Positions 24,011 through 37,675 of a DNA stretch of 38,431 nucleotides are shown here, one piece after another. The position numbers and the translations under genes were made by a program. The number at the start of each line of letters is the position of its first letter. Positions within the stretch are counted from its first letter, which is position 1. The stretch comes from Lachnospiraceae bacterium (lineage in GTDB: Bacteria > Bacillota > Clostridia > Lachnospirales > Lachnospiraceae). The stretch is from the NCBI GenBank assembly GCA_017520155.1, contig JAFXGR010000068.1, forward strand, positions 1 to 38,431. Direction: 5' to 3'. A model generated the notes under the pieces. The model searched no databases. It was not told where the DNA came from and saw only the letters and a program-made list of their open reading frames with translations.

Positions 24011-24176
24011 CTAGTGCAACGGTTTTAAATTAACTATACCATATCATATGCCTATTTTTCGGATAGCAAAGATTCAAAAAGCCTCAGCGTAGCCCGCTAA
24101 GCCTGCGTTTTTTAATTTCACTCTCAGAAAAATATTCTATGTGAATGATATAGCTATTTAGAAAACGATACACTAG
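24011..24176. mobile_element. MITE copy 1 (166 bp, CTAG ends)
   Basis: A non-coding element repeated at 30491-30657 with roughly 90% identity over its whole length. Both copies begin CTAGTGCAACGG and end with CACTAG; the ends form imperfect inverted repeats of about 32 bases. The centre holds a GC-rich stem around GCGTAGCCCGCTA next to an A run and a T run. CTAG ends with TA as the probable duplicated target suggest mobilisation by an IS630/Tc1-mariner type transposase, none of which is in the window. It sits directly before the GGDEF gene. Confidence 0.85.
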
Positions 24177-24411: not shown

Positions 24412-26271
24412 ATGAATTTGATTAACATAGAGAATTTGACAAAGTCTTATACGGAAAGAAAGCTGTTTAACGGTGCATCCTTTTCCTTACAGGAAGGAGA
24501 GAAGGTAGGGATCATTGGGATTAACGGAACGGGAAAGACTACTTTGTTAAAAATGATTATTGGAGAGGAAGAAACAGACGAAGGAATGGTTACCATTGCT
24601 AAACATGTGGTAATTCGTTATCTGCCCCAGCATCCGGAATTTTCACCGGATAAAAGCAGCCTGGATTGTGTACTGGAAGGAAATGTGACGGAGGAAAACC
24701 GCTGGTCCATAGAAAGTGAAGCCAAGGCAATGATGACACGCCTTGGGATTAAAGATTTTATGCAGCCTGCAGGGCAGTTATCAGGCGGACAGAGAAAAAG
24801 GCTTGCACTGATTTCTGTACTCCTGTCTTCCGCAGATATTCTTTTACTGGATGAGCCCACAAACCATTTGGATAACGAAATGGCAGACTGGTTGGAAGAG
24901 TATCTGAAAAAGTGGAGAGGAGCACTTATTATGGTTACCCATGACCGCTACTTTTTGGATAGTGTGACAAACCGGATTATTGAAATTGATAAAGGGCTGA
25001 TTTATAGTTACCAGACTAATTATTCGGGGTACTTGGAATTAAAAATGGCGCGGCAGGAAAGGGAAATGTCAAGTGAAAGAAAGCGCCAGTCCATACTTCG
25101 TGTAGAGTTGGAATGGATACAAAGAGGCGCCAGAGCTCGATCCACAAAACAAAAAGCACATATACAGCGTTATGAGAAGTTAAGAGACCAACAGGCACCG
25201 GTGCAGGATTCACAGGTGGAGTTAAGTTCCATTTCAACAAGACTTGGTAAAACCACAGTTGAGCTGGAACATATTCATAAGTCCTATGGAGAGAAAAAAC
25301 TGATAGATGATTTTTCTTATATTTTTTTAAAGGGAGACAGAGTAGGCTTTATTGGACCAAACGGTTGTGGAAAATCTACCCTAATGAAAATCATTGCAGG
25401 GCTGATACCACCGGATTCAGGACAGGTGATCATTGGTCAGACGGTTAAAATGGGGTACTATGCACAGGAAATCGCTTCACAAAAGAAAGAGCAGGAAAAG
25501 GAAGTTGATTTATCTTACATGGACCCAAAGCAAAGGGTTATTGATTATGTAAAAGATACTGCAGAATATATACAGACAGTGGATGGGGCTATTTCTGCTT
25601 CTGCCATGTTGGAGAAATTTTTATTTCCACCGGAAAAACAATACAGTCCCATTGGAAAATTATCCGGAGGGGAAAAGAAGAGATTAAATCTCCTTCGTGT
25701 ATTGGCCACGTCCCCAAATTATCTTTTGCTGGATGAGCCTACCAATAATTTAGATATTGCTACGTTGACAATTTTGGAGGACTATCTGGATCGTTATGAG
25801 GGTATCGTTGTTACGGTATCCCATGACCGGTATTTCCTTGACAGAACCATGAAACGGATCTTTGCCTTTGAGGGAGAGGGAAAACTGAAACAATATGAGG
25901 GTGGTTATACCGATTATTCCTTGAAAAAATTAGTGATGAAGGAAGAGACTGAGGCAGAGCAGGTTAAGAAAACCGGCAATATATCCAAGATAAATACAAA
26001 GGAGTCACAAAAAGGGCAACGTCCTCGTGGTCCCAAAAAACTTAAATTTACTTTTCAGGAACAAAAGGATTATGAAAAAATTGAAGGTGAGATAGCTGAA
26101 CTGGAAGAAAAAATAGAAAATCTGGAAAGAGAAATGGCTGCAGTATCAACAGACTTTGTAAAACTAAATGAGATCATGGCTGATAAAGAATCCACAGAGC
26201 ATTTACTGGAAGAGAAGATGGATAGGTGGATGTACTTGGAAGAATTAGCCGCAAGAATTGCCAAGCAGTAG
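24412..26271 (+). CDS. ABC-F family ATPase, Uup/YfmR type
   Basis: 619 residues with two ATP-binding cassettes and no membrane segment, the plan of ABC-F proteins that act on the ribosome. Domain 1: GINGTGKTT, LSGGQRKRLAL, LLLDEPTNHLD. Linker with WIQRGARARSTKQKAH, typical of Uup. Domain 2: GPNGCGKST, LSGGEKKRLNL, LLLDEPTNNLD. A C-terminal coiled coil (about 545-619) ending in MDRWMYLEELAARI also fits Uup/YfmR. A translation-factor or housekeeping role is more likely than antibiotic resistance. The start has GAGGAAACAAC upstream. Confidence 0.9.
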   Translation: MNLINIENLTKSYTERKLFNGASFSLQEGEKVGIIGINGTGKTTLLKMIIGEEETDEGMVTIAKHVVIRYLPQHPEFSPDKSSLDCVLEGNVTEENRWSIESEAKAMMTRLGIKDFMQPAGQLSGGQRKRLALISVLLSSADILLLDEPTNHLDNEMADWLEEYLKKWRGALIMVTHDRYFLDSVTNRIIEIDKGLIYSYQTNYSGYLELKMARQEREMSSERKRQSILRVELEWIQRGARARSTKQKAHIQRYEKLRDQQAPVQDSQVELSSISTRLGKTTVELEHIHKSYGEKKLIDDFSYIFLKGDRVGFIGPNGCGKSTLMKIIAGLIPPDSGQVIIGQTVKMGYYAQEIASQKKEQEKEVDLSYMDPKQRVIDYVKDTAEYIQTVDGAISASAMLEKFLFPPEKQYSPIGKLSGGEKKRLNLLRVLATSPNYLLLDEPTNNLDIATLTILEDYLDRYEGIVVTVSHDRYFLDRTMKRIFAFEGEGKLKQYEGGYTDYSLKKLVMKEETEAEQVKKTGNISKINTKESQKGQRPRGPKKLKFTFQEQKDYEKIEGEIAELEEKIENLEREMAAVSTDFVKLNEIMADKESTEHLLEEKMDRWMYLEELAARIAKQ

Positions 26272-26382: not shown

Positions 26383-26396
26383 AGAACAAATGTTCT
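26383..26396. promoter_or_regulatory. LexA (SOS) box-like palindrome
   Basis: AGAACAAATGTTCT contains the GAAC-N4-GTTC core of the Gram-positive LexA/DinR box in a perfect 6+2+6 palindrome. It lies 8 bases before the -35 of the next promoter. If bound by LexA, the downstream gene would be induced by DNA damage. Confidence 0.5.
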
Positions 26397-26404
26397 AAAA
26401 TATA

Positions 26405-26433
26405 TTTACAACAAATATCTGGTTTGATATAAT
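26405..26433 (+). promoter_or_regulatory. Promoter at the start of the accessory island
   Basis: TTTACA (26405-26410), a 17-base spacer and a perfect TATAAT (26428-26433). The leader to the ATG at 26513 is about 70 bases. Confidence 0.7.
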
Positions 26434-26512
26434 TATATTGTCTAACAAGGTTTTATAAAGAAAAATTGTGAGTGAATTTAGATGATATTACTACTGCGGA
26501 AGAAGGGATATA

Positions 26513-27721
26513 ATGAGTTACGCACACGAATTATGGCCGATTAGCGGAAAGCGTTTTTTTGATATAGATAATCAGAGATATTTGGTACATATTAAATGGA
26601 GTAGAAATTTAAAAAGTGATTACCAGAGGTTATCAGAAAATTTTTTTATTTGTGGATATAAGATATGTGAGAAGATAGTAGATAGTGGACATGACAATAT
26701 TAAGTCTGATATGTGGTTTTTGCCAAGTATGTACTTATTCAGACAAGGAATGGAATTGGGGATAAAGGCTCTTATTTGTGATGTGGTTGCAAGTAAGAAT
26801 AAAATACAGCAAATATTCCTTGGTTGTAAACACGATTTATATATGTTATTTGAAGCATATGAAGTAGAAACTACGCTTGTTCTTACTTTGGATGAATACA
26901 ATTGGATAAAAAAGTATTTGTTGTCTTTGGAAGAAGTAGATGCTAAGTCAGATTTATTTCGTTTTCCCTTTGAGGATGATTTTTTATCTGTTTATAGAGA
27001 TGATTTTTTAGATGTTGTTGATATGGCAAATAGCATGCTACAAGCATATGGAATTATTCAGAAATGTTTACAAATACCAGAGAGTGAGAGAATAGATAGA
27101 TTTGATCCGGCTCGTTCCTCAGATTTTTTGCAATTTGCGAGTCATGGATTTGGTAATTGCTCTTTATGGGAGTCCATTTCCGGAGATGGTTTTCACAAGC
27201 AGGTTCTGGGGGATAGTTTGGCAACAGAGTTTTTGTTTTATGAATGTAATGAAATTTCGAAAGGAGATAAGACATTTGCAATATTATTTCTATTGAGAAA
27301 TCTTATAGAATTAGGTTTAAAGAGAATGTTTTATAAGACGATAGAACATGGTGTGCCAAGAAATATTTTTTTAAGTAAAAGAAGGAGTCACTTGCGCTAC
27401 AAAGAATTATGGAAGAATGTACGTCCAATGATTGAATATTATGCAAAAGCTCAAGGACAGGATTTAGAGATAATTGATATTGTAGAGACTCAAATTCAAG
27501 AATTAGGTAACGTAGATAAAAATGGTGATATTTTTAGGTATCCCACTTCGTACAGTTTGGAATACCGGTTTGACAATATAGATATAGACTTGAAAAATGC
27601 ATATGAATTTATGCAGGGAATATTCAATTTTTGTGATGGATGCGATAGTGAATTTGAGGCTGTCGCAGATTGGGAATCTGACATGAGAAGTGAAATGGCA
27701 CAATATGCAGATTGGTATTAG
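26513..27721 (+). CDS. Protein with duplicated HEPN-like halves
   Basis: 402 residues with no recognised full-length family. Two halves share a pattern: LFRQGMELGIKALI (75-88), a His-bearing helix KHDLYMLFEAY (106-116), then LSLEEVDAKSDLFRFPF; and LLRNLIELGLKRMF (260-273), SHLRYKELWKNV (292-303), then LGNVDKNGDIFRYP. The R-x3-EL-x-K helix followed by a His helix and a closing D-(L/I)-FR-(F/Y)-P is seen in HEPN-like proteins; an internal duplication is the simplest reading. It has its own promoter and LexA-like box, and the TIGR02391 gene follows within 15 bases. HEPN proteins are often RNases of defence or toxin systems, but the function here is unknown. Confidence 0.65.
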   Translation: MSYAHELWPISGKRFFDIDNQRYLVHIKWSRNLKSDYQRLSENFFICGYKICEKIVDSGHDNIKSDMWFLPSMYLFRQGMELGIKALICDVVASKNKIQQIFLGCKHDLYMLFEAYEVETTLVLTLDEYNWIKKYLLSLEEVDAKSDLFRFPFEDDFLSVYRDDFLDVVDMANSMLQAYGIIQKCLQIPESERIDRFDPARSSDFLQFASHGFGNCSLWESISGDGFHKQVLGDSLATEFLFYECNEISKGDKTFAILFLLRNLIELGLKRMFYKTIEHGVPRNIFLSKRRSHLRYKELWKNVRPMIEYYAKAQGQDLEIIDIVETQIQELGNVDKNGDIFRYPTSYSLEYRFDNIDIDLKNAYEFMQGIFNFCDGCDSEFEAVADWESDMRSEMAQYADWY

Positions 27722-27735
27722 TGGGGTGTCGAGGT

Positions 27736-27798
27736 ATGGCAGAAAAAATAAGAAAGCTAAGTAATTCGGAAATAGAAGTATTGGCGAAGATTGTCTGA
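27736..27798 (+). other. 5' part of the TIGR02391 gene, ended by an in-frame TGA
   Basis: ATG at 27736, 14 bases after the previous stop and with GGGG at 9 bases, opens a 20-codon frame (MAEKIRKLSNSEIEVLAKIV) that ends with TGA at 27796-27798. The same frame continues as ECMTGTQMDSIF, which reads as the natural continuation of the family's N-terminal helix-turn-helix-like region. A CGA-to-TGA change would explain the break. Confidence 0.65.
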
Positions 27799-27804
27799 GA
27801 ATGT

Positions 27805-28548
27805 ATGACTGGCACTCAAATGGATAGTATTTTTCATGAGTGTGGGGTAAGGGATACAAGTAATGAAAGTACAAAATGGAAAAGGATATTTTATACTTTT
27901 CAGGCGAAACAAGAGGCCGATGGCTCGTCTAATGCTTTTTTGAATTTTATAAAGAAAAGTTTAAATCCGGTCAGATTTGTATCAGGCAATAACGGTGATC
28001 ATGAGTTGATTTTGGCAGAAATTAATAAACCGTTATTATTAATGGGTTTGGAGATGACAAATGAAGGAAAGTTAATTAAAGCTGTTGCCGCAACTACAAT
28101 TTCTGAAGTTGAGAGAAGAACACGAAGCTTAGTGAGTGAATTACAAAAGAGACACATTCATGCAGATGTAGTGAAGTGCTGCAAGGAGGAGTATCTTCAA
28201 GAAAATTATTTTCATGCGGTGTTTGAGGCTGCGAAAAGTTTATCCGAAAAAGTAAGAGAGAAAACCGGTATTCAGGATGATGGTTCTGCGCTGTTTAATA
28301 CTGCGTTTTCAGTAAATAATCCAAGATTGGCATTAAACTCATTACAGACATCCACTGAAAGAAATTTACAAAATGGATTGAAAGAAATGTTAAATGGCGT
28401 TACACATATGGTACGAAATGTAACAGCACATGAACTTAAAGTCAAATGGGTTTTAAATGAGCAAGATGCAATTGATATTTTAACAACTATTTCCTTTTTG
28501 CATAAGCAGTTGGATGAGCGCTTTGTGGTTCCACAGCATATAATATAG
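27805..28548 (+). CDS. TIGR02391 (Ymh) family HEPN protein, restarted after a nonsense codon
   Basis: 247 residues from the first ATG after the in-frame TGA. N-terminal part (TGTQMDSIFHECG, then TKWKRIFYTFQAKQ) and C-terminal part (YFHAVFEAAKSLSEKVREKTG, then MVRNVTAHE) match what is known of the TIGR02391/Hypoth_Ymh family. R204-N-V-T-A-H209 is an R-x4-H HEPN motif, so an RNase-like role in abortive infection or plasmid maintenance is plausible. Because this ATG lies 6 bases after the TGA, reinitiation could yield an almost complete protein; otherwise the gene is a pseudogene. It probably shares a transcript with the duplicated HEPN-like gene. Confidence 0.75.
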   Translation: MTGTQMDSIFHECGVRDTSNESTKWKRIFYTFQAKQEADGSSNAFLNFIKKSLNPVRFVSGNNGDHELILAEINKPLLLMGLEMTNEGKLIKAVAATTISEVERRTRSLVSELQKRHIHADVVKCCKEEYLQENYFHAVFEAAKSLSEKVREKTGIQDDGSALFNTAFSVNNPRLALNSLQTSTERNLQNGLKEMLNGVTHMVRNVTAHELKVKWVLNEQDAIDILTTISFLHKQLDERFVVPQHII

Positions 28549-28575
28549 TTAAAAATAAATTTGAGCAATAAGTGA

Positions 28576-28604
28576 TTGTTGAGGACGAAGAAATATGGTA
28601 TATT
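28576..28604 (+). promoter_or_regulatory. Promoter of the toxin-antitoxin pair
   Basis: TTGTTG (28576-28581), 17 bases, TATATT (28599-28604). It lies 26 bases before the antitoxin ATG. Confidence 0.45.
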
Positions 28605-28629
28605 TAGAATGAAGAAAGGGTGTGATTGT

Positions 28630-28794
28630 ATGTTAGTAGCAAATGCACAGCAAGTAATTGAACCAACTGATACTACAAAGTTGGAATTTTATCGTTTGAT
28701 TGGGGAAGGCTATAAGGCAATGCAGGATGGCAGAACCAGCACAATCGATGAAGTAAGAGAAAAACTGAAAAAGAGGAGAGAAGAACGTGGCTAG
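28630..28794 (+). CDS. Antitoxin of a RelE/ParE-type pair
   Basis: 54 residues. ATG 28630 is preceded by AAAGGG at suitable distance; a longer frame upstream exists but lacks support. The C-terminal half, GRTSTIDEVREKLKKRREERG, is the charged helix typical of small antitoxins that wrap ParE/RelE toxins. The gene overlaps the toxin start by 8 bases. Its DNA-binding N-terminus would be expected to repress its own promoter. Confidence 0.75.
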   Translation: MLVANAQQVIEPTDTTKLEFYRLIGEGYKAMQDGRTSTIDEVREKLKKRREERG

Positions 28795-29101
28795 TGTAGT
28801 ATTTACTGAACCGGCAGAATATGATTTGCTGGACATAGAATACTATATCTTCGTTGACCTCTGCAATCCTCAAGCAGCTCAAAGAATATCTGATGGTATA
28901 TTGGATACCGCTGAAAAATTAAGTGAATATCCAACAGGTCATCCGCTGGTAGACGATGAACTTTTAAGAAGCGTTGGTCTACGAATGACACGCTTCGATA
29001 ACTACAACATTTTCTATTACTATGATATGCAAAATGATGTAGTGTACATAATCAGAGTTTTGTATAACAAAGTGGATTGGCAAAGTTTATTTAAAAGATA
29101 A
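28787..29101 (+). CDS. RelE/ParE family toxin
   Basis: 104 residues of the RelE/ParE fold: VVFTEPAEYDLLDIEYYI at the start, TRFDNYNIFYYYDMQNDVVYI in the sheet, and the usual ending VLYNKVDWQSLF. Members either cleave ribosome-bound mRNA (RelE) or poison gyrase (ParE); this cannot be decided here. The start is GTG at 28787, with GGAG upstream inside the antitoxin gene, so the pair is translationally coupled. Confidence 0.87.
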   Translation: MASVVFTEPAEYDLLDIEYYIFVDLCNPQAAQRISDGILDTAEKLSEYPTGHPLVDDELLRSVGLRMTRFDNYNIFYYYDMQNDVVYIIRVLYNKVDWQSLFKR

Positions 29102-29113
29102 ATGTTCAGAATC

Positions 29114-29147
29114 AAACCTCCAAGTCTTTCAAAGATTTGGAGGTTTT
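29114..29147 (+). terminator. Rho-independent terminator after the toxin
   Basis: AAACCTCCAA (29114-29123) pairs with TTGGAGGTTT (29137-29146) around a 13-base loop; the T tract is short (four). Confidence 0.75.
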
Positions 29148-29196
29148 CTGTCAACTATTTTTTGGGGGAGGAATTTTCGCAACAAACAATATATGA

Positions 29197-29209
29197 TACA
29201 ATTATTGTA
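29197..29209. promoter_or_regulatory. Short palindrome before the microORF
   Basis: TACAAT-T-ATTGTA is a perfect 6+1+6 dyad 21 bases before the microORF, and TACAAT could serve as its -10 box. An operator overlapping a promoter is possible. Confidence 0.3.
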
Positions 29210-29230
29210 AAAAACAAAGAAGGTGCCAAT

Positions 29231-29341
29231 ATGGGATATGATGCATATGTGTATAATAAAAAGAAATACACAAAGTTATGTATTGAAAAATATTCTATTT
29301 CTATAGAAGCGATAGTGGACAAGCATGGGATAATGAGGTAA
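29231..29341 (+). CDS. 36-residue microORF upstream of the ApeA-like gene
   Basis: ATG 29231 has AAGGTG six bases upstream; the product begins MGYDAYVYNKKKY and ends VDKHGIMR. It resembles no family I know. It stops 4 bases before the next start codon, so it could be a coupled leader peptide, a small partner protein or the remnant of a longer gene. A longer frame from 29102 overlaps the terminator and is not supported. Confidence 0.45.
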   Translation: MGYDAYVYNKKKYTKLCIEKYSISIEAIVDKHGIMR

Positions 29342-29345
29342 TAAT

Positions 29346-30407
29346 ATGAATTTTTTGATTAATAGGTTAGATAATTTAGAGATTGGTGGTGAAAGTTTCG
29401 AGTTTATTTCTGAAGATATCAAGAAAGATATAAACATGAATGGGATGATTGTTGGTGCAAATGGCAAGTTTTTGGTTGATCAAAAGGATATAATGGTTTT
29501 AATTAGAAAGTCAGATTTGAAAAATCAAATAGGTGAAAACATGTATAATGCTATATTAAGAAAGCCAATGATGATTTATTTAATCCCCACACAAGAAGAT
29601 GAATTTGAAAGTACAAAAAAAGAACTCGATAAAAAATATGGTATGAAGTTAATACATTTAAATAATTTTGCACAGGCATTTTCTTTGGGGTGTTGGTTTA
29701 TAAAGGATTCTTGTGTTACAGCTAATTTTATTTATTGGATTAATATGTTTAATGGATATAATTCACAAGTTACAAGAGATATGCCAATAACTATGAGTAA
29801 TGGGATGATATCAGAAATATGCCTAACAGATGTTGAAATGGCAGAGGCAATTGATAGAATGTATGAAGTATATCGTTATTTATTGCCGGATGAGTCTGCA
29901 ATGGGGCGAGTTGAAAGTACATATAGCGTAGGAACACAGGTATGGAATGTCGATAAAGCAATAAGTACGGAGGGAAAAAGTTTTGCAAGAGCGTTGATAA
30001 TATTACAAGAAGCTCGTAGAACAGGAGTCTTATCGAGTAAAATAGATAAGTATTGTTCTGTTTTGGAATGTATATATGCCATAAAGAAAGAACATAAGAA
30101 GAATATATCCAATATTACTGCTGCATACATAGGGAATGATAGTGAGGAACAAGAAAGAATTAGGGAAAATATGAGAGATGCCTATGGGGTACGTTCGGAT
30201 GGTTCTCACGGAGATAATTTGAAATATTTGCAAGAAAATGATAGAGAAATTTTAATGAGATTGTCGACAGTTATCGATGATTATGTTAGAAGAGTTTTTA
30301 GAAAAGTTATCGTTGTAGAAAATTTGAATTATAATAATACTTCGGAAGAAAAAGCACGTGTAAGAAAGTATTTTAGCGACTTAGCGAAAGAGGTTTATCC
30401 AGAATGA
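29346..30407 (+). CDS. ApeA-like HEPN protein
   Basis: 353 residues. The N-terminal two thirds are unrecognised. The C-terminal third has an all-helical HEPN look: KYCSVLECIYAIKKEHKKN, then YGVRSDGSHGDN with R283-x4-H288, the motif of ApeA-like HEPN RNases (anti-phage abortive infection). It begins 4 bases after a 36-residue microORF and is followed by a MITE. Domain call is by motif only. Confidence 0.65.
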   Translation: MNFLINRLDNLEIGGESFEFISEDIKKDINMNGMIVGANGKFLVDQKDIMVLIRKSDLKNQIGENMYNAILRKPMMIYLIPTQEDEFESTKKELDKKYGMKLIHLNNFAQAFSLGCWFIKDSCVTANFIYWINMFNGYNSQVTRDMPITMSNGMISEICLTDVEMAEAIDRMYEVYRYLLPDESAMGRVESTYSVGTQVWNVDKAISTEGKSFARALIILQEARRTGVLSSKIDKYCSVLECIYAIKKEHKKNISNITAAYIGNDSEEQERIRENMRDAYGVRSDGSHGDNLKYLQENDREILMRLSTVIDDYVRRVFRKVIVVENLNYNNTSEEKARVRKYFSDLAKEVYPE

Positions 30408-30490
30408 TTTGCTTTGTATAGGGGAATAACTGTTTTTTTACGTATGAACAAGGCAAAAACAAGTATATCTTGGAGAATCAAAGGAGCAAG

Positions 30491-30657
30491 CTAGTGCAAC
30501 GGTTTTAAATTAACTACACCATATCGCATGCCTATTTTCCTAATAGCAAAGATTCAAAAAGCCTCAGCGTAGCCCGCTACGCCTACATTTTTTGAACTTC
30601 ACTCTCAGAAAAATATTCTATGTGAATGGTATAGTTATTTAGAAACCGTTACACTAG
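30491..30657. mobile_element. MITE copy 2 (167 bp, CTAG ends)
   Basis: Second copy of the element at 24011-24176. Its ends pair better: the first 32 bases and the reverse complement of the last 32 agree at 27 positions. The central stem is perfect here (GCGTAGC-CC-GCTACGC). It ends 53 bases before the STAND gene, so any promoter further upstream would be read through the element. The rest of the gap between 30408 and 30710 shows nothing recognisable. Confidence 0.88.
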
Positions 30658-30710
30658 TCGGGGGAACTAATAAGAGGTTTTAGTGGACTGAAGAAAGATA
30701 AGGAGTATTG

Positions 30711-33700
30711 ATGGTTAGTAGAAACTTTGAAAAATCTGATATGGGTGCGCAGGCAGCATGGAAAGGATTCTCATCACAGACATTATATATAGCTTCCAGA
30801 CTAATCTCTGATGTTGATGAGTATGAGTATTATCCGGAAGATGTTGAAGATTTGATTGTTAAAAAAGATGGTGTTGTGGTGGAAGCAGTTCAGGTTAAAA
30901 ATGTAGTTGCTGATCTCACGATTTCAAGTCTTGCAGCCACTAAGACATCTAAAGGTGGTGAAGGTTTTTTTAACCGTATGTGTAGCTTACACATGCAAAA
31001 TAAGTCCTTTTCAAACATCCGAATAGTTTATTTTGGTGAGTTGGGTACAGAATTTCAAGAAGTCAAAGATAATATAGATTCCACAAAAAAAAATCTGGCA
31101 AAAAGGTTGGAGGATAAGCATGGTCTATCAGCAACGGATGCCTGTTGGTTAATAAATTCATTAATCTTCGAAAAAGCCAATTTGGAGGAACTTAACAGGA
31201 ATATTTGTTTACAAATTAGTAGTTATATTCCTGCTATGCCAGCACCAGAGTTGACACAAGATTTATTGATTCAATATATTTCCGAGTTATCCAATAGTAA
31301 AGGCTTTACCACCTTAAAGAAGTGGCAAGAGAAGATACATAGTATTGGAACAAGTATTGCTGCAATAGATGGTTTTTATAAGGAATATAATAAATCGCTG
31401 GTATGTTTAAGAGAACTTCAGTTGAATTACAGTCATGATCAGCTACAAAATGAGTTTTCCCAAGGTGTGTCTGCTCACCCTACACATATTCGTTTAGGAT
31501 TAGACTTTAAGCGCGGTGATTGGCTTGAAATGGTTCGGCAAGTACTTAAGAACAAGGGCGTTGCAGTGATTAAGGGAGTTTCTGGACAGGGAAAATCTAC
31601 GCTTTGTTACCGCTACTTAATTGACACATACCCTGAAGGGTGTGTATTTTGTGTTCGAGCAATCGGAACTGAAGAACAGGCACAGAATTTGGTTGCAGCG
31701 TTAGATGGGCTTGGTAAATATAATAAGAATTTAGTTATTTATATTGATGTGCAACCGGGAGAAATTCTTTGGGCATTTCTTGTACAGGAATTACAATCGC
31801 GTGGTTTAGAAATTCCAGTTCTGATTTCGATTCGTGATGAAGATTATAATGCAACGCCAATTAATGGAAAAGCAATTCAGTATGGTGTTGTAGAATTATT
31901 GTTGTCAGAAGAAGAGGCGGAGCATATTTATGACACCATTACTGCATTTCAGCCCCATTCATTACATAGAACTTTTGAAGATGCGTGGCAATCTTTTGGC
32001 GGTAAAGGTCCGTTGATTGAATTTGTGTATTTGCTTACAAATAACCAGACTTTGACTCAGCGTATTCATGAGCAGATTGATGCGTTGCTGAAAGAAGGAG
32101 TTTTGGATGAATGGTTAGAGTTGCTTCAGTTGGTATGTTACACAGGACGTTTGGGTTGTTCTGTTAATCTTAATAATGTTAAGAAAGTTATTCAGTGTTC
32201 TACAATGCAAGCGGCGATAAGACGTTTGGAAGACGAATATCTGATCAGAGTTGTTGATGAAAACAGAATTGAAGCATTGCATCCGGTACGTGCACAAATA
32301 GTGTTTGATATGTTGTGCAATCAGACTTGTACTAATGCAAGAGACATAATATTTAAGACGTTATCTTGTGTGTCTTCACGAAATGTCAGATTGCTTTTGT
32401 TGGATTATTTCTCGCACCACAAATATCAAATAGAAGATATCGAAAAACTTTCGCGAATCACTTTTACTGACTGGTTACAATTTGCAAATGTTATCAGAAT
32501 AATGCTTTGGTTGGATGCCAAACGTTATGTTGATAGTAATATGGCTTATATTCACTCTTTTATTGAGAGACGTGGTAAAGCATGGCTTTGTTTTCTTCCG
32601 CTTGATCTTTCTGGTATTAGTGGAAGAAGTGAACTTATTGCGGATGGAATGAAGGAATTGCCTCTATTTAATAAAGCAGATTTGCAGGAATCCATTGATG
32701 AGGTAAAAAGCTCTCTCACATCACTGTCCATTGATTATCAAGCAACAGACTATTTCTTTAAAAATTGTACTTATCCAGACGTTTTGCCTAATGCGGACGA
32801 AGAACGGTCATCATTTGGATATGCCTTATTTTGGATGGCCAAGCGAGGATTTGAAGTTGCCTTATCATTCAATGCTTCTGAAATAGCAACATGTGTATGT
32901 TCAGGTGAACTTCAGCCATCAGCAGATGCGATACGTGGGCTTTATGAGCATTCAGAATTAAGGGAAAGTTATCAAAGGGCAATAGAGATAATGGTAGATA
33001 AATTGATTTCTGAAATGAGCATTATTTCTTATACGGTTACTGATGATGCAGTGTCTTGCAAGTTTATTCCACCATTATTAACAGAAAAGGCCATTCCTGA
33101 AAATGTAAAGAATACCAATCAATATTGGCGAATTAAAATGTTAGATATTCTTAAGCAGATGTATCCAGAAAAGGAATATATCGATATTGAATTAATCGGT
33201 GTTGATCTTTTGGGCGATTTAGGAATCAAAGCTATGGATTATAAGCTTCACATGCACAAAGATAAGCGTCCTAATACATGGGTTTCGGAAGTAAATGGAT
33301 GGACAAAGATTCGAATTGATTATAGTTTACGTCCATCTACATGGAATCAATATGTATTAGAAATTGATGGAATAAGAAGTAATGTCCATGAATTGGTTTT
33401 AGAAACACTTAAGTTTATTGATGATATTTATAAGAAAGGGCATTATACAAAAGAGAGATGGAAACGAGTTGAGGAACGGTTAAATATTTTTAGAACGCAT
33501 ACATTTGCTGAAAATCGTCTTCCTCATTTTGCTGTGGATCCGTATTGCCTTTACTCAGAAGGCAATGCTAAAAGTCCTACAGCAGAATTTTTTACTATGC
33601 GCCAATTGCTCTCGGTTGGAAAGTATGAAAAGTTTAGGAAGCGTTTGAATGATGTGTATACTTCTTTAGACAATTTCTATAATCAATTTGCTGAAGTTTT

Positions 33701-34757
33701 GCTAGTACGAATTAACAAACAGGATATTGCTGGTGTTGAAAAGCCAAAACTTGCGATGTTCAATTTATATTCTGCCGCAAAAGCACTTACAGATTTCCAG
33801 CAAGAGTATGCTTCGTTATTTTTAAGATACAGTTCGCTTGATGAGTCATTTGCAAAACAGGAACTGGAAAGCGTTCTTACGTTGCTAAACGTTTGGCGTC
33901 ATGTTCTCGATAATGCACCAAAAGGGTATGCAATTGTTTATGATGCAAAGCAGAAATATCGCAGAGGTGTGAATTATTTTCGTGATACGCTTATGAAAGC
34001 TGTGGCAGAGGTAAATGGGACTCTTATCGAAGCAGGGAGGTATGCGTACATTGCTGTGGACTATAGTCTTTCTGAAGAAAATACACTCTCAAACAAATAT
34101 ACGAGTATTGTTTTAAAGTTTAGGAAGGTTTTTCAAAGTGCTGTTTTGTATTCAAGTGATAGATGGTATTCTGAAACTCAACCGTTGGAGCTAGCGTATG
34201 TTCCCACTATTTCAGGAGTGTATTCACCTGTTGGGTATTCGATTCCGTTTTATAAACTTTTTGATGCAGAGGAATCTCGTATTGCAAATCCGATGTTTCC
34301 TTGCGAAATAGAAGGTATATTACAAGAAAAGACTATTACTGGAGATGTTCAAGATACTTGGATAAATGTATTAAAGAAAGTTGGTGAAATGAAATTGTAT
34401 CTTCAGCGATACTCTCAAGTTTCACAGATGCCAGTTAGTAAAAAATGCATTAATAGTTATAATTTGTTTTTGGAATCTCTCACAAAGCAGATGCACGTGT
34501 TGTGGAGAGAAATTGTTTCGGTCGAAGAAATTGTAAATGAACTGATTAAAGAAGCAGATGAGCAAATTGTGGAGTTATTGAATTTGGTACAACTGTTTCT
34601 CGACTGTTACGATGAAATAGAAAATTGTATCCGAACCAATGGCGATCCAAATGAAATCATTCAGATAATGGAAACAGTGGCAGGTATAATGTTTATTTTG
34701 TTGCCGTATGTGGCAAAGTACAGTTCCAATCATGAAAGAGAATATATTGGTGGTTGA
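30711..34757 (+). CDS. Cap4-type nuclease / STAND NTPase, AVAST-like defence protein
   Basis: 1348 residues. The N-terminus looks like a Cap4/DUF4297 dsDNA nuclease: GAQAAWKGFSSQTLYIASR, an acidic residue in VEDLIV (Asp47), and EAVQVK with Glu58, Gln61 and Lys63 as the PD-(D/E)xK-like set. A P-loop GVSGQGKST (289-297, Lys295) and a Walker B-like VIYIDVQPG mark the NTPase. The long C-terminal two thirds are helical and unassigned, where STAND proteins carry their sensor. Avs proteins have this order and cut DNA after sensing phage proteins. AAGGAG is 5 bases before ATG 30711; TTG 30708 is rejected. It stands alone or pairs with the next gene. Confidence 0.8.
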   Translation: MVSRNFEKSDMGAQAAWKGFSSQTLYIASRLISDVDEYEYYPEDVEDLIVKKDGVVVEAVQVKNVVADLTISSLAATKTSKGGEGFFNRMCSLHMQNKSFSNIRIVYFGELGTEFQEVKDNIDSTKKNLAKRLEDKHGLSATDACWLINSLIFEKANLEELNRNICLQISSYIPAMPAPELTQDLLIQYISELSNSKGFTTLKKWQEKIHSIGTSIAAIDGFYKEYNKSLVCLRELQLNYSHDQLQNEFSQGVSAHPTHIRLGLDFKRGDWLEMVRQVLKNKGVAVIKGVSGQGKSTLCYRYLIDTYPEGCVFCVRAIGTEEQAQNLVAALDGLGKYNKNLVIYIDVQPGEILWAFLVQELQSRGLEIPVLISIRDEDYNATPINGKAIQYGVVELLLSEEEAEHIYDTITAFQPHSLHRTFEDAWQSFGGKGPLIEFVYLLTNNQTLTQRIHEQIDALLKEGVLDEWLELLQLVCYTGRLGCSVNLNNVKKVIQCSTMQAAIRRLEDEYLIRVVDENRIEALHPVRAQIVFDMLCNQTCTNARDIIFKTLSCVSSRNVRLLLLDYFSHHKYQIEDIEKLSRITFTDWLQFANVIRIMLWLDAKRYVDSNMAYIHSFIERRGKAWLCFLPLDLSGISGRSELIADGMKELPLFNKADLQESIDEVKSSLTSLSIDYQATDYFFKNCTYPDVLPNADEERSSFGYALFWMAKRGFEVALSFNASEIATCVCSGELQPSADAIRGLYEHSELRESYQRAIEIMVDKLISEMSIISYTVTDDAVSCKFIPPLLTEKAIPENVKNTNQYWRIKMLDILKQMYPEKEYIDIELIGVDLLGDLGIKAMDYKLHMHKDKRPNTWVSEVNGWTKIRIDYSLRPSTWNQYVLEIDGIRSNVHELVLETLKFIDDIYKKGHYTKERWKRVEERLNIFRTHTFAENRLPHFAVDPYCLYSEGNAKSPTAEFFTMRQLLSVGKYEKFRKRLNDVYTSLDNFYNQFAEVLLVRINKQDIAGVEKPKLAMFNLYSAAKALTDFQQEYASLFLRYSSLDESFAKQELESVLTLLNVWRHVLDNAPKGYAIVYDAKQKYRRGVNYFRDTLMKAVAEVNGTLIEAGRYAYIAVDYSLSEENTLSNKYTSIVLKFRKVFQSAVLYSSDRWYSETQPLELAYVPTISGVYSPVGYSIPFYKLFDAEESRIANPMFPCEIEGILQEKTITGDVQDTWINVLKKVGEMKLYLQRYSQVSQMPVSKKCINSYNLFLESLTKQMHVLWREIVSVEEIVNELIKEADEQIVELLNLVQLFLDCYDEIENCIRTNGDPNEIIQIMETVAGIMFILLPYVAKYSSNHEREYIGG

Positions 34758-34873
34758 GATGATAGTAGGGGATATACATCTCAATTGCTTACTCATGGCA
34801 TTGTGAAGTCTGCGTAAAATTATAGTGAAAGTAATATAGAAATACGTAATTTGAAATGGGATATAAATTATAA

Positions 34874-35887
34874 GTGACAAAAGAGAAATCATATATGAAG
34901 ATAAATAGTTTAAAGGTCAGAAAAATCAATAAATTTATAAATAGGTTAAGTAAAGAATTAGAAGAACAAATGAGGGAGATTCAAATTAGCAACAGCAATT
35001 ATAATAGCGAGGATATGTGTATTGCAGGAACTCCTCTATACTTACACCTGAATAGTTATATGAATGAAAATGTGTTTCCTGCTATGGGACTTGCAAAATA
35101 TGCTAAGTCTTCTGCCGAGAAAATGTTTTTTTGTAACTATTTGTGTATTTTGTTATATTCATTTATTGAACTGTATGCGCAATGTTTAAATGTCTATTAC
35201 CATCTTGATTTAATACCAATACACAAAGCGGTAGATAGAAGTGTAATTTCGGGTGGAGGAATAGTAGAACAAACAAAACAGGGGTTATTTGATATTTCAG
35301 GGAGAGTAGTCAGCATTGAAAGCGTTATAAAAGAGTTGAGTAAAAAATATCAAACAAATGAGTATTTTGAAATTATTAAAAACATACTAGAGATGGATGA
35401 AATAAGACGTTTAAAAGAGCTTCGAAATAATCAGCTACATTATCAGCCTGTTTTTGGAAGATTTAATCAAAGTTATATACTTGGAAATGATGGTTTTTTT
35501 ACTATTAATATAAGCCCCAATAATGCAGATATTGATAAAAAAGAATATTTTGAATTTGTTTCTCTTTCAGAAAGGATAATCAATGAGGAAATAAAGTTAA
35601 TTTATTATTTTGTTGAAATGATAATTGATAAAAAAATGTTACTTAAAGAGGAAAAAGAGAGAAAATTATGTGTTGTGAAATGCATGAAATGTAAAAGAGA
35701 CTTACTTCTTCCGGAAGAGATTATTTCATACATGAAGGTGTTAGAAGTTTTACCTGTATTTCCTCATAATAATGAATGTAATGGTAAAGTTAATTTAGAC
35801 ATAATACGAAAAGTAAATGTTCATCCCGAAAAATATTGTAGTATTGCATTTGATGCAATAAGAAGGACTATCGGAGAGGACTGCTGA
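34874..35887 (+). CDS. HEPN protein with C-terminal Cys/His segment
   Basis: 337 residues if started at GTG 34874; ATG 34895 is an equal alternative and neither has a strong ribosome binding site. The helical body carries ELRNNQLHYQ, where R184-x4-H189 fits a HEPN active site as in Cthe_2314-type proteins. Near the end CVVKCMKCKRDLLLPEEI and, 30 residues on, HNNEC could bind zinc and act in nucleic acid recognition. It follows the STAND gene on the same strand after 116 bases with no terminator seen, so it may be a partner or a separate system. Confidence 0.6.
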   Translation: MTKEKSYMKINSLKVRKINKFINRLSKELEEQMREIQISNSNYNSEDMCIAGTPLYLHLNSYMNENVFPAMGLAKYAKSSAEKMFFCNYLCILLYSFIELYAQCLNVYYHLDLIPIHKAVDRSVISGGGIVEQTKQGLFDISGRVVSIESVIKELSKKYQTNEYFEIIKNILEMDEIRRLKELRNNQLHYQPVFGRFNQSYILGNDGFFTINISPNNADIDKKEYFEFVSLSERIINEEIKLIYYFVEMIIDKKMLLKEEKERKLCVVKCMKCKRDLLLPEEIISYMKVLEVLPVFPHNNECNGKVNLDIIRKVNVHPEKYCSIAFDAIRRTIGEDC

Positions 35888-36934: not shown

Positions 36935-37675
36935 TTAAATTAATAGTTGAGGATGTTCTTCAACCGTAACTGTTTCTACATCTATTAAACCGGAACAATG
37001 TTCCTTAATAAAATCACTCCATGGCAACAGTTGTTCTATGCCTTCGGACCTGTCTTTGTAGCCCGGCATGTACAACAGCAATGTATAGATATATTGGAAC
37101 ACATTCAGATTGTTTGCTTTTGCAGTCTCTACGAGACTATATATGATACTGGAAGCAACAGCTCCATCCACGGATGTATGGAATAACGAATTCTTTCTAC
37201 CGATAGCATAGCTTTTCGCCTTTCGTTCGGCACAATTGTTAGAAAGTTCACTTCGGCCATCCTTAAGATAATTGCGCAGAGTATCCTTGTGATTTTGGGC
37301 ATAGTTCACCGCTTTCTCCAGCTTGCATCCTTTTGTAGGATGCAAAGTCTCGAGCCAGGTAAAGAAATTTTCCCAAACCGGTATTTCCTGCTCCATTCGT
37401 TTTATCTTACGCTCTTCAGGAGATAAATCTTTGAATTCTCTCTCCAAGTAGAAGAGTTTATTAAAATAGGCAACTCCAATTTCAGCAGGAATGTATTTAT
37501 CCAAATCCTCTTTAGGAATTTCAGGTTCCTTGATGGCCTGTGAGGAATTGATATCCAGAAGTTTGATGGTTTTCTTCTTCTGTGCTGGAAGTGCTTCATA
37601 GAACTTTCTTCTGGCATGAGCACTGCAGCAAAGTAATATACATCAGCAACTTTATGGTATCCCTGGTATCCAATA
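36935..37675 (-). pseudogene. IS66 family transposase (TnpC), C-terminal remnant with frameshift
   Basis: The minus strand reads from about 37675: GYQGYHKVADVYY in one frame, then after a one-base shift near 37635 CCSAHARRKFYEALPAQKKK, KEDLDKYIPAEIGVAYFNKL, KDGRSELSNNCAERKAKSYAIGRKN (two runs), and FHTSVDGAVASSIIYSLVET. These are the C-terminal DDE and tail signatures of IS66 transposases. The first half of the protein is missing, replaced at about 37672 by a recombinase fragment, so the element cannot move by itself. Confidence 0.82.

Follow-up and report, generated by a model that had tools for sequence, protein, structure and literature searches.

Do the defence-like genes near the end of this contig form one multi-gene system, or are several systems stacked there? 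The window, meaning the whole stretch of 38,431 nucleotides that was analysed, is a complete contig, one of 189 in a draft genome that is 81% complete, and the island is readable only to the contig end. Seven co-directional genes lie between an ABC-F gene (24412–26271) and, close to the end of the contig, a partial IS66 transposase (Table 1). An initial annotation, made from the sequence alone, had placed open reading frames (ORFs) here, and the ORF coordinates bore these out. It had also ascribed a defence look to them, left the number of systems open, and proposed A with B and F with G as candidate units.

Table 1. Features of the island and its right flank, in window coordinates.
Feature	Position	Strand	Description
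Gene A	26513..27721	+	402 aa, tandem HEPN-like; unit 1 ~26591-27067, unit 2 ~27161-27640; without R-x4-6-H
Gene B, in-frame upstream part	27736..27804	+	TGA at codon 21, read by eye
Gene B	27805..28548	+	247 aa, TIGR02391 / PF09509; R204-x4-H209
Small ORF, putative antitoxin	28576..28794	+	weak RelB/ParD match, E 0.13
ParE-type toxin	28787..29101	+	PF05016, E 3.5e-10
79-aa ORF	29102-29341		without Pfam match
Gene E	29346..30407	+	353 aa, HEPN-like; R283-x4-H288
MITE-like repeat	30491..30657	.	167-bp imperfect palindrome, many genome copies
Gene F	30711..34757	+	1348 aa from ATG 30711
Gene F, Cap4/LmuA-type nuclease	~30741-31226	+	
Gene F, STAND NTPase	~31485-31853, then LHxxR region	+	
Gene F, long C-terminal part	downstream of LHxxR region	+	
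Gene G	34874..35887	+	337 aa, weak Cthe_2314-HEPN-like segment, R184-x4-H189
Gene G, tail			C-x2-C...H-x3-C, read by eye
IS66-family transposase, partial	36935..37504	-	near the contig's right end

The G+C content of the island units was low in all six measured (0.288–0.365), against 0.390–0.438 in 16 upstream genes of our own picking and 0.406 in the ABC-F gene. At third codon positions the ranges overlap slightly (0.234–0.309 for the island, 0.285–0.398 upstream). A scan of the window for tRNAs and for Rfam families at gathering score found neither. The ABC-F gene is 74–77% identical at the DNA level in three same-genus contigs; a fourth (G203) ends inside it, leaving three readable past it. 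In all three, alignment with the window stops within ~50 bases of the ABC-F stop and different genes follow, which fits a variable site. The search for an empty site in relatives that had been proposed thus yielded differing neighbours and no clean empty site among these three contigs; since each carries other genes downstream, the comparison gives no insertion boundary.

Co-occurrence was scored in 29 loci holding relatives of A (11), B (4), E (2) or F (12), using each window protein as a tblastn query (E up to 1e-3) and omitting ABC-F matches from the table. These loci were picked from 104, the rest being duplicates, ABC-F or repeat loci, and partial or P-loop-only matches. The B loci come from 4 of the 105 plasmid records in which B relatives occur and the E loci from 2 of 3, and some of the 29 extend only 1–3 kb on one side. 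A second island gene was found in none of the 29, which speaks against one multi-gene system and makes several stacked systems the better of the two branches left open initially. Without co-occurrence in these loci, neither A with B nor F with G is supported as a unit. One genome (G314) carries relatives of both A and F, approximately 173 kb apart. Taken as a whole, the island is best explained, with good though not full confidence, as a patch of independent single-gene or toxin-antitoxin defence modules, low in G+C and probably horizontally acquired. These modules would have been stacked one by one between the housekeeping ABC-F gene and the transposon remnants. Both the acquisition and the defence role of the island genes are inferred.

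Gene F was investigated for the domains of the 1348-residue nuclease-NTPase that it had been called, and both Cap4/LmuA-type nuclease and STAND signals were present. At E up to 1, Pfam nSTAND5 and nSTAND3 matched all six F members (best 1e-7 and 8.7e-7, respectively), PADLOC LmuA matched five (best 3.3e-10) and Cap4 PF14130 four (best 0.00047); the Pfam scores of the window protein lie under the curated cut-offs. LmuA-named models also match unrelated proteins, so that name proves little alone. Residues D47, E58, Q61 and K63 are invariant in all six aligned members, and we take them to be the D...QxK pattern of Cap4-type PD-(D/E)xK nucleases. Also invariant in all six are P-loop residues G289 and S291–K295, D346, and H524 and R527, the last two belonging to an LHxxR motif whose role may be comparable to that of MHD in STAND proteins. 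A profile search of solved structures returned 20 matches, 19 to the P-loop region and one weak match to TFIIS, with no Avs-named structure among them.

Two known systems resemble this arrangement. Avs proteins are built from an N-terminal effector, a STAND NTPase and a long C-terminal sensor region that binds terminase, portal or another phage protein, and F likewise joins an N-terminal nuclease-type domain, a STAND NTPase and a long C-terminal region in one chain, as in Avs1–4. A difference is that none of the PADLOC families matching F (E up to 1) is named Avs, although PADLOC includes Avs models. Lamassu comprises an LmuA effector and a separate SMC-like LmuB. The N-terminal domain of F resembles LmuA/Cap4 in matching PDLC03848 (LmuA; 7.7e-7), alongside the PF14130 matches in four of six members, but its nuclease is fused to STAND and no LmuB match was found among the eight window proteins scanned. 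F is best regarded as a candidate that most likely works like an Avs-type nuclease-STAND sensor, a likeness of action more than of proven membership. Avs1–4 are described as pairing a nuclease effector with sensing of phage proteins (PMC12931631). By this likeness, the C-terminal part of F would bind a phage protein, the STAND NTPase would oligomerise with ATP, and the N-terminal Cap4-type domains would cut DNA. No description of a Cap4-STAND protein of this type was found in the open literature searched.

In two plasmids (of Pseudanabaena and Deinococcus), in clostridial contigs and in two viral contigs, F stands with none of the other island genes beside it; the viral contigs were found by F profile search. 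One viral relative is 71% identical with a shorter C-terminus (1044 aa) and lies beside MuA/MuB-like ORFs (named by eye); the other is 27% identical and 1393 aa long. Phage records gave one partial match, 22% identical. F matches were seen in 18 of 392 order genomes, its own included, and 13 of the 18 covered only short P-loop stretches. Longer matches came from four other order genomes: G491 (a fragment), G514, G314 and G206. Relatives in the last three (L093–L095) are 1,315–1,324 aa long, with C-terminal parts 17–19% identical to that of F. Two of these loci (L093 and L095) have three upstream chromosomal genes in common before F (44–55% identity for two, 24% for the third), suggesting that two families share an insertion place. 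Two further loci (L032 and L034) carry only parts of F.

These loci also bear on whether F and G act as a two-gene system, with F sensing and signalling and G being an RNase effector or an accessory brought along. The two genes share a strand and lie 116 bp apart, G has an R-x4-H motif within a weak HEPN match, and in L030 an F relative is closely followed, after 4 bp, by a partner gene with a caspase domain (Pfam C14). However, G is missing from all 12 F loci, and F already has a nuclease-type domain of its own. Neighbours also vary: the gene downstream of clostridial F may be the caspase-domain gene, a 630-aa ORF, a radical-SAM-like ORF (by eye) or others, and no neighbour is common to more than three of the 12 loci. 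We consider the pairing very unlikely. Co-inheritance in this lineage alone could still apply, as G has no relatives: none besides itself was found in 200 family genomes and 275 order genomes, and none in plasmids or viral contigs. Of G as a HEPN protein with a Cys/His tail, what stands is a single sub-threshold match to PF18730 (E 0.0027; 18.2 bits, cut-off 27.1) over residues 141–197, inside which R184-x4-H189 falls; the tail was read by eye. PHROGs gave one marginal match (E 0.05), and a sequence search of solved structures returned nothing useful for G, nor for A, B or F.

Assignment of B as a TIGR02391 protein was confirmed (E 3.7e-44 in Pfam, 4.1e-35 in NCBIfam), and PHROGs matched both B and the ParE-type toxin. 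The word TIGR02391 itself appears in no paper of the open literature searched. B matches the component model PD-Lambda-3_B (PDLC03987) at E 3.7e-56 over 236 positions and keeps an R-N-x3-H motif, seen in all four aligned sequences (window plus three). It differs from PD-Lambda-3 in that its N-terminal part is TGA-interrupted and no other component was found among the eight window proteins scanned, the existence of a partner component A being taken from the model name. PD-Lambda-3 is termed an abortive infection system (PMC13190303) and is tabulated under a PD-(D/E)XK nuclease domain (PMC10952713). In three annotated B relatives the start lies 75 bases further upstream than the site equivalent to window 27805. 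An in-frame ATG does exist in the window, at 27736, but codon 21 from there is TGA (by eye). With this stop lying upstream in frame where relatives start, B is either shortened, decayed, or hit by a draft-genome error.

The R-x4-H motif had been noticed in three island proteins, and it is indeed present in B (204), E (283) and G (184, and again at 312). Composition-shuffled sequences contain it too, in 37% of cases for B, 16% for E and 25% for G, and it is thus weak evidence alone; conservation in relatives is what counts. B, E and perhaps G would be HEPN-type proteins, and their RNase-type R-x4-H motif makes RNA cutting the likeliest action. For the proposed RelE/ParE pair, the ParE-type toxin scored above the curated cut-off and the small ORF upstream gave only the weak match listed in Table 1.

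A HEPN pair formed by A and B, whether PD-lambda-3-like or a toxin-antitoxin unit, appears highly improbable. A gap of 14 bp separates gene A from the upstream in-frame ATG of B, and a Paenibacillus locus (L039) has a Cthe_2314-family HEPN gene just upstream of its TIGR02391 gene. However, PADLOC gave no family match (E up to 0.1) for that HEPN gene, B is absent from all 11 A loci and A from all four B loci, and here a stop interrupts the N-terminal part of B.

Gene E retains R283 and H288 in three of three aligned sequences (window plus two), and one relative is annotated as HEPN domain-containing. The description of E as ApeA-like was not upheld: searches of Pfam, PADLOC and NCBIfam, all of which include ApeA models, gave no ApeA-named match up to E 1. 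E is rare; its own genome apart, we found it in three plasmid records, with two weak partial matches in 200 family genomes and one in 275 order genomes.

Between E and F lies the 167-bp repeat, whose ends read CTAGTG[CT]AACGG. Of 95 candidates in the genome, 40 were scored, giving 27 copies near full length (at least 165 bases, own included) and 13 partial ones, and copies other than its own are 92–99% identical. The end motif occurs 65 times, versus none for a reversed control. In 21 contigs it falls within the first 171 bases, and partial copies at contig ends may be the two ends of one copy. A more diverged copy starts at 24011, upstream of the ABC-F gene. Among six same-genus genomes, the repeat gave 27 matches in one (both palindrome strands counted; 89% identity for the best-scoring), a single weak match in each of two, and no match in the other three.

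The repeat, together with the partial IS66 transposase and the TGA inside the B reading frame, could be read as a sign that the region is partly decayed. On this view the region would be what is left of old defence modules: B and the IS66 gene would be broken, and F, A, E and G alone would still be functional. Against this, the reading frames of A, E, F and G are fully open, the invariant motif residues are retained in F, and an assembly error in this fragmented draft could account for the TGA, or B may simply start at ATG 27805. We regard partial decay as possible but rather doubtful; it is compatible with the explanation by stacked modules.

Gene A had been described as a duplicated HEPN-like protein. 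Comparison of its two halves as profiles from a seven-row alignment gave an hhalign probability of 98.8 and a score of 106.7 over 154 columns (12% identity), while 20 column-shuffled controls reached at most a probability of 2.0 and a score of 20.7. A is a true internal duplication. In each unit R-x3-E-x3-K is followed by H (H-[DN]-L in unit 1) and after that by SD-x-FR-[YF]-P or a looser version of it. The HEPN part of the description fared less well. Searches with window A drew no match from Pfam, PADLOC and NCBIfam up to E 1, nor from PHROGs up to E 0.1. Only two of six members reach the HEPN model PF05168 at E up to 1 (best 0.0031), and the unrelated model F_actin_bind reaches E 0.0014 in one member. 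E-x3-K with a later H is a pattern of PF05168 HEPN, and A resembles HEPN only weakly. It differs from PF05168 in being a tandem duplicate with the added SD-x-FR-[YF]-P, without an RNase motif and without a match at curated thresholds. R-x4-6-H is absent from window A and appears in three of seven members, at non-corresponding places. As a two-unit HEPN-like protein without an R-x4-H-type motif, A would more likely be a sensor, adaptor or inhibitor than an RNase. The open literature searched held no description of tandem HEPN defence proteins, and A may be an undescribed family. Relatives were found in 11 of 392 order genomes, own included, six of the 11 as partial matches only. No viral contig matched the A single-sequence query and one matched the A profile.

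The neighbours of A relatives were scanned in nine of the 11 loci (L024 and L104 fell outside the scan), hand-picking them from ORF lists. A defence-type neighbour was present in eight of nine, six of them by annotation or a PADLOC match above 100 bits; L020 had no clear one. Type I restriction genes lie beside A relatives in L018 (annotated) and L023 (998 bits), the latter also with RT_UG24 (1270 bits). GajA and GajB do so in L089 (645 and 1061 bits), PDC-S01 in L025 (380 bits) and L092 (191 bits), and TIR genes in L019 (annotated); a TIR-SIR2 gene (L091) and an LA2681-type HEPN gene (L090) were named by Pfam. The A relative of L025 is a one-unit protein of 225 aa, and that of L024 a 264-aa ORF matching over 92 residues. 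In a control scan of 10 genes (eight around relatives' ABC-F genes, two from the window), four matched PADLOC at E <0.001, with a top score of 35.9 bits. As control genes match too, it is the A neighbours above 100 bits that carry weight. Of the island genes, B, which belongs to a PADLOC defence family, F, with its nuclease and STAND signals, E, whose HEPN-type motif is kept in relatives, and the ParE-type toxin bear out the defence look claimed; A does so indirectly, via its neighbours elsewhere.

No neighbour is common to more than two of the 11 A loci; those that recur, in two loci each, include the type I R subunit (L018 and L023) and PDC-S01 (L025 and L092). Membership of A in a fixed system is thus less likely than a role as an independent module or as a promiscuous accessory. 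A bolder proposal is that A founds an undescribed family of ~400 aa, with two HEPN-like units that lack RNase residues and are marked by conserved R-x3-E-x3-K, H-[DN]-L and SD-x-FR-[YF]-P. Such a family would travel as a shared accessory among defence systems that are unrelated to one another (type I restriction, Gabija, UG24 reverse transcriptase, PDC-S01 and TIR), for example sensing when the main system is damaged, or regulating it. We hold this in its full form to be unlikely.

As far as the fetched loci allow, the island genes look stacked, and each is therefore to be tested alone. Gene F represents a nuclease-STAND family seen in Bacillota, Cyanobacteriota and Deinococcota, of which PADLOC-DB labels only the nuclease. 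Gene A represents a testable defence-associated family that is invisible to the libraries used here and deserves separate study.

A palindromic, MITE-like repeat of 167 bp lies between genes E and F of the window, F encoding the Cap4/LmuA-type nuclease–STAND NTPase protein. Scoring of the draft genome gave 27 near-full-length and 13 partial copies, and the end motif was found inside the first 171 bases of 21 contigs. Given this copy number and the motif's position near contig starts, much of the assembly's fragmentation is probably due to the repeat. Apart from a possible CTAG, no duplicated target site was visible in the sequences flanking seven copies.

The TIGR02391 gene of the window has an in-frame TGA in its N-terminal part. 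On a Paenibacillus plasmid (L039), a TIGR02391 gene has a Cthe_2314-family HEPN gene immediately upstream, which matched no PADLOC family at E-values up to 0.1.

Relatives of F were seen in varied company. In L030, a caspase-domain (Peptidase C14) gene follows the F relative after a 4-bp gap, and two serine-recombinase-like ORFs (named by eye) lie upstream of the pair. One relative on a viral contig (L102) is 71% identical, shorter at its C-terminus, and adjoins MuA/MuB-like ORFs (by eye). An ORF of 135–156 aa near F is common to L094 and L095.

In L031, MazG-like ORFs (named by eye), both of 112 aa and closely resembling each other, lie on either side of a segment that carries a 630-aa gene together with an F relative. 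Their presence on both flanks suggests an insertion with duplication of a neighbouring gene. The same three chromosomal genes precede distant F relatives in L093 and L095, whose genomes belong to two different families; this position may be an insertion hotspot.

Coordinates of the repeat and of the genes and loci discussed
Feature	Sequence	Position
167-bp repeat	window	30491–30657
167-bp repeat, another copy	window	from 24011
TIGR02391 gene, N-terminal part	window	27736–27804
TIGR02391 and HEPN genes	L039	3276–5723
F relative and caspase-domain gene	L030	5240–10646
F relative	L102	4923–8057
MazG-like ORFs	L031	6936–7274; 13664–14002
Region with distant F relative	L093	3485–8150
Region with distant F relative	L095	924–7139
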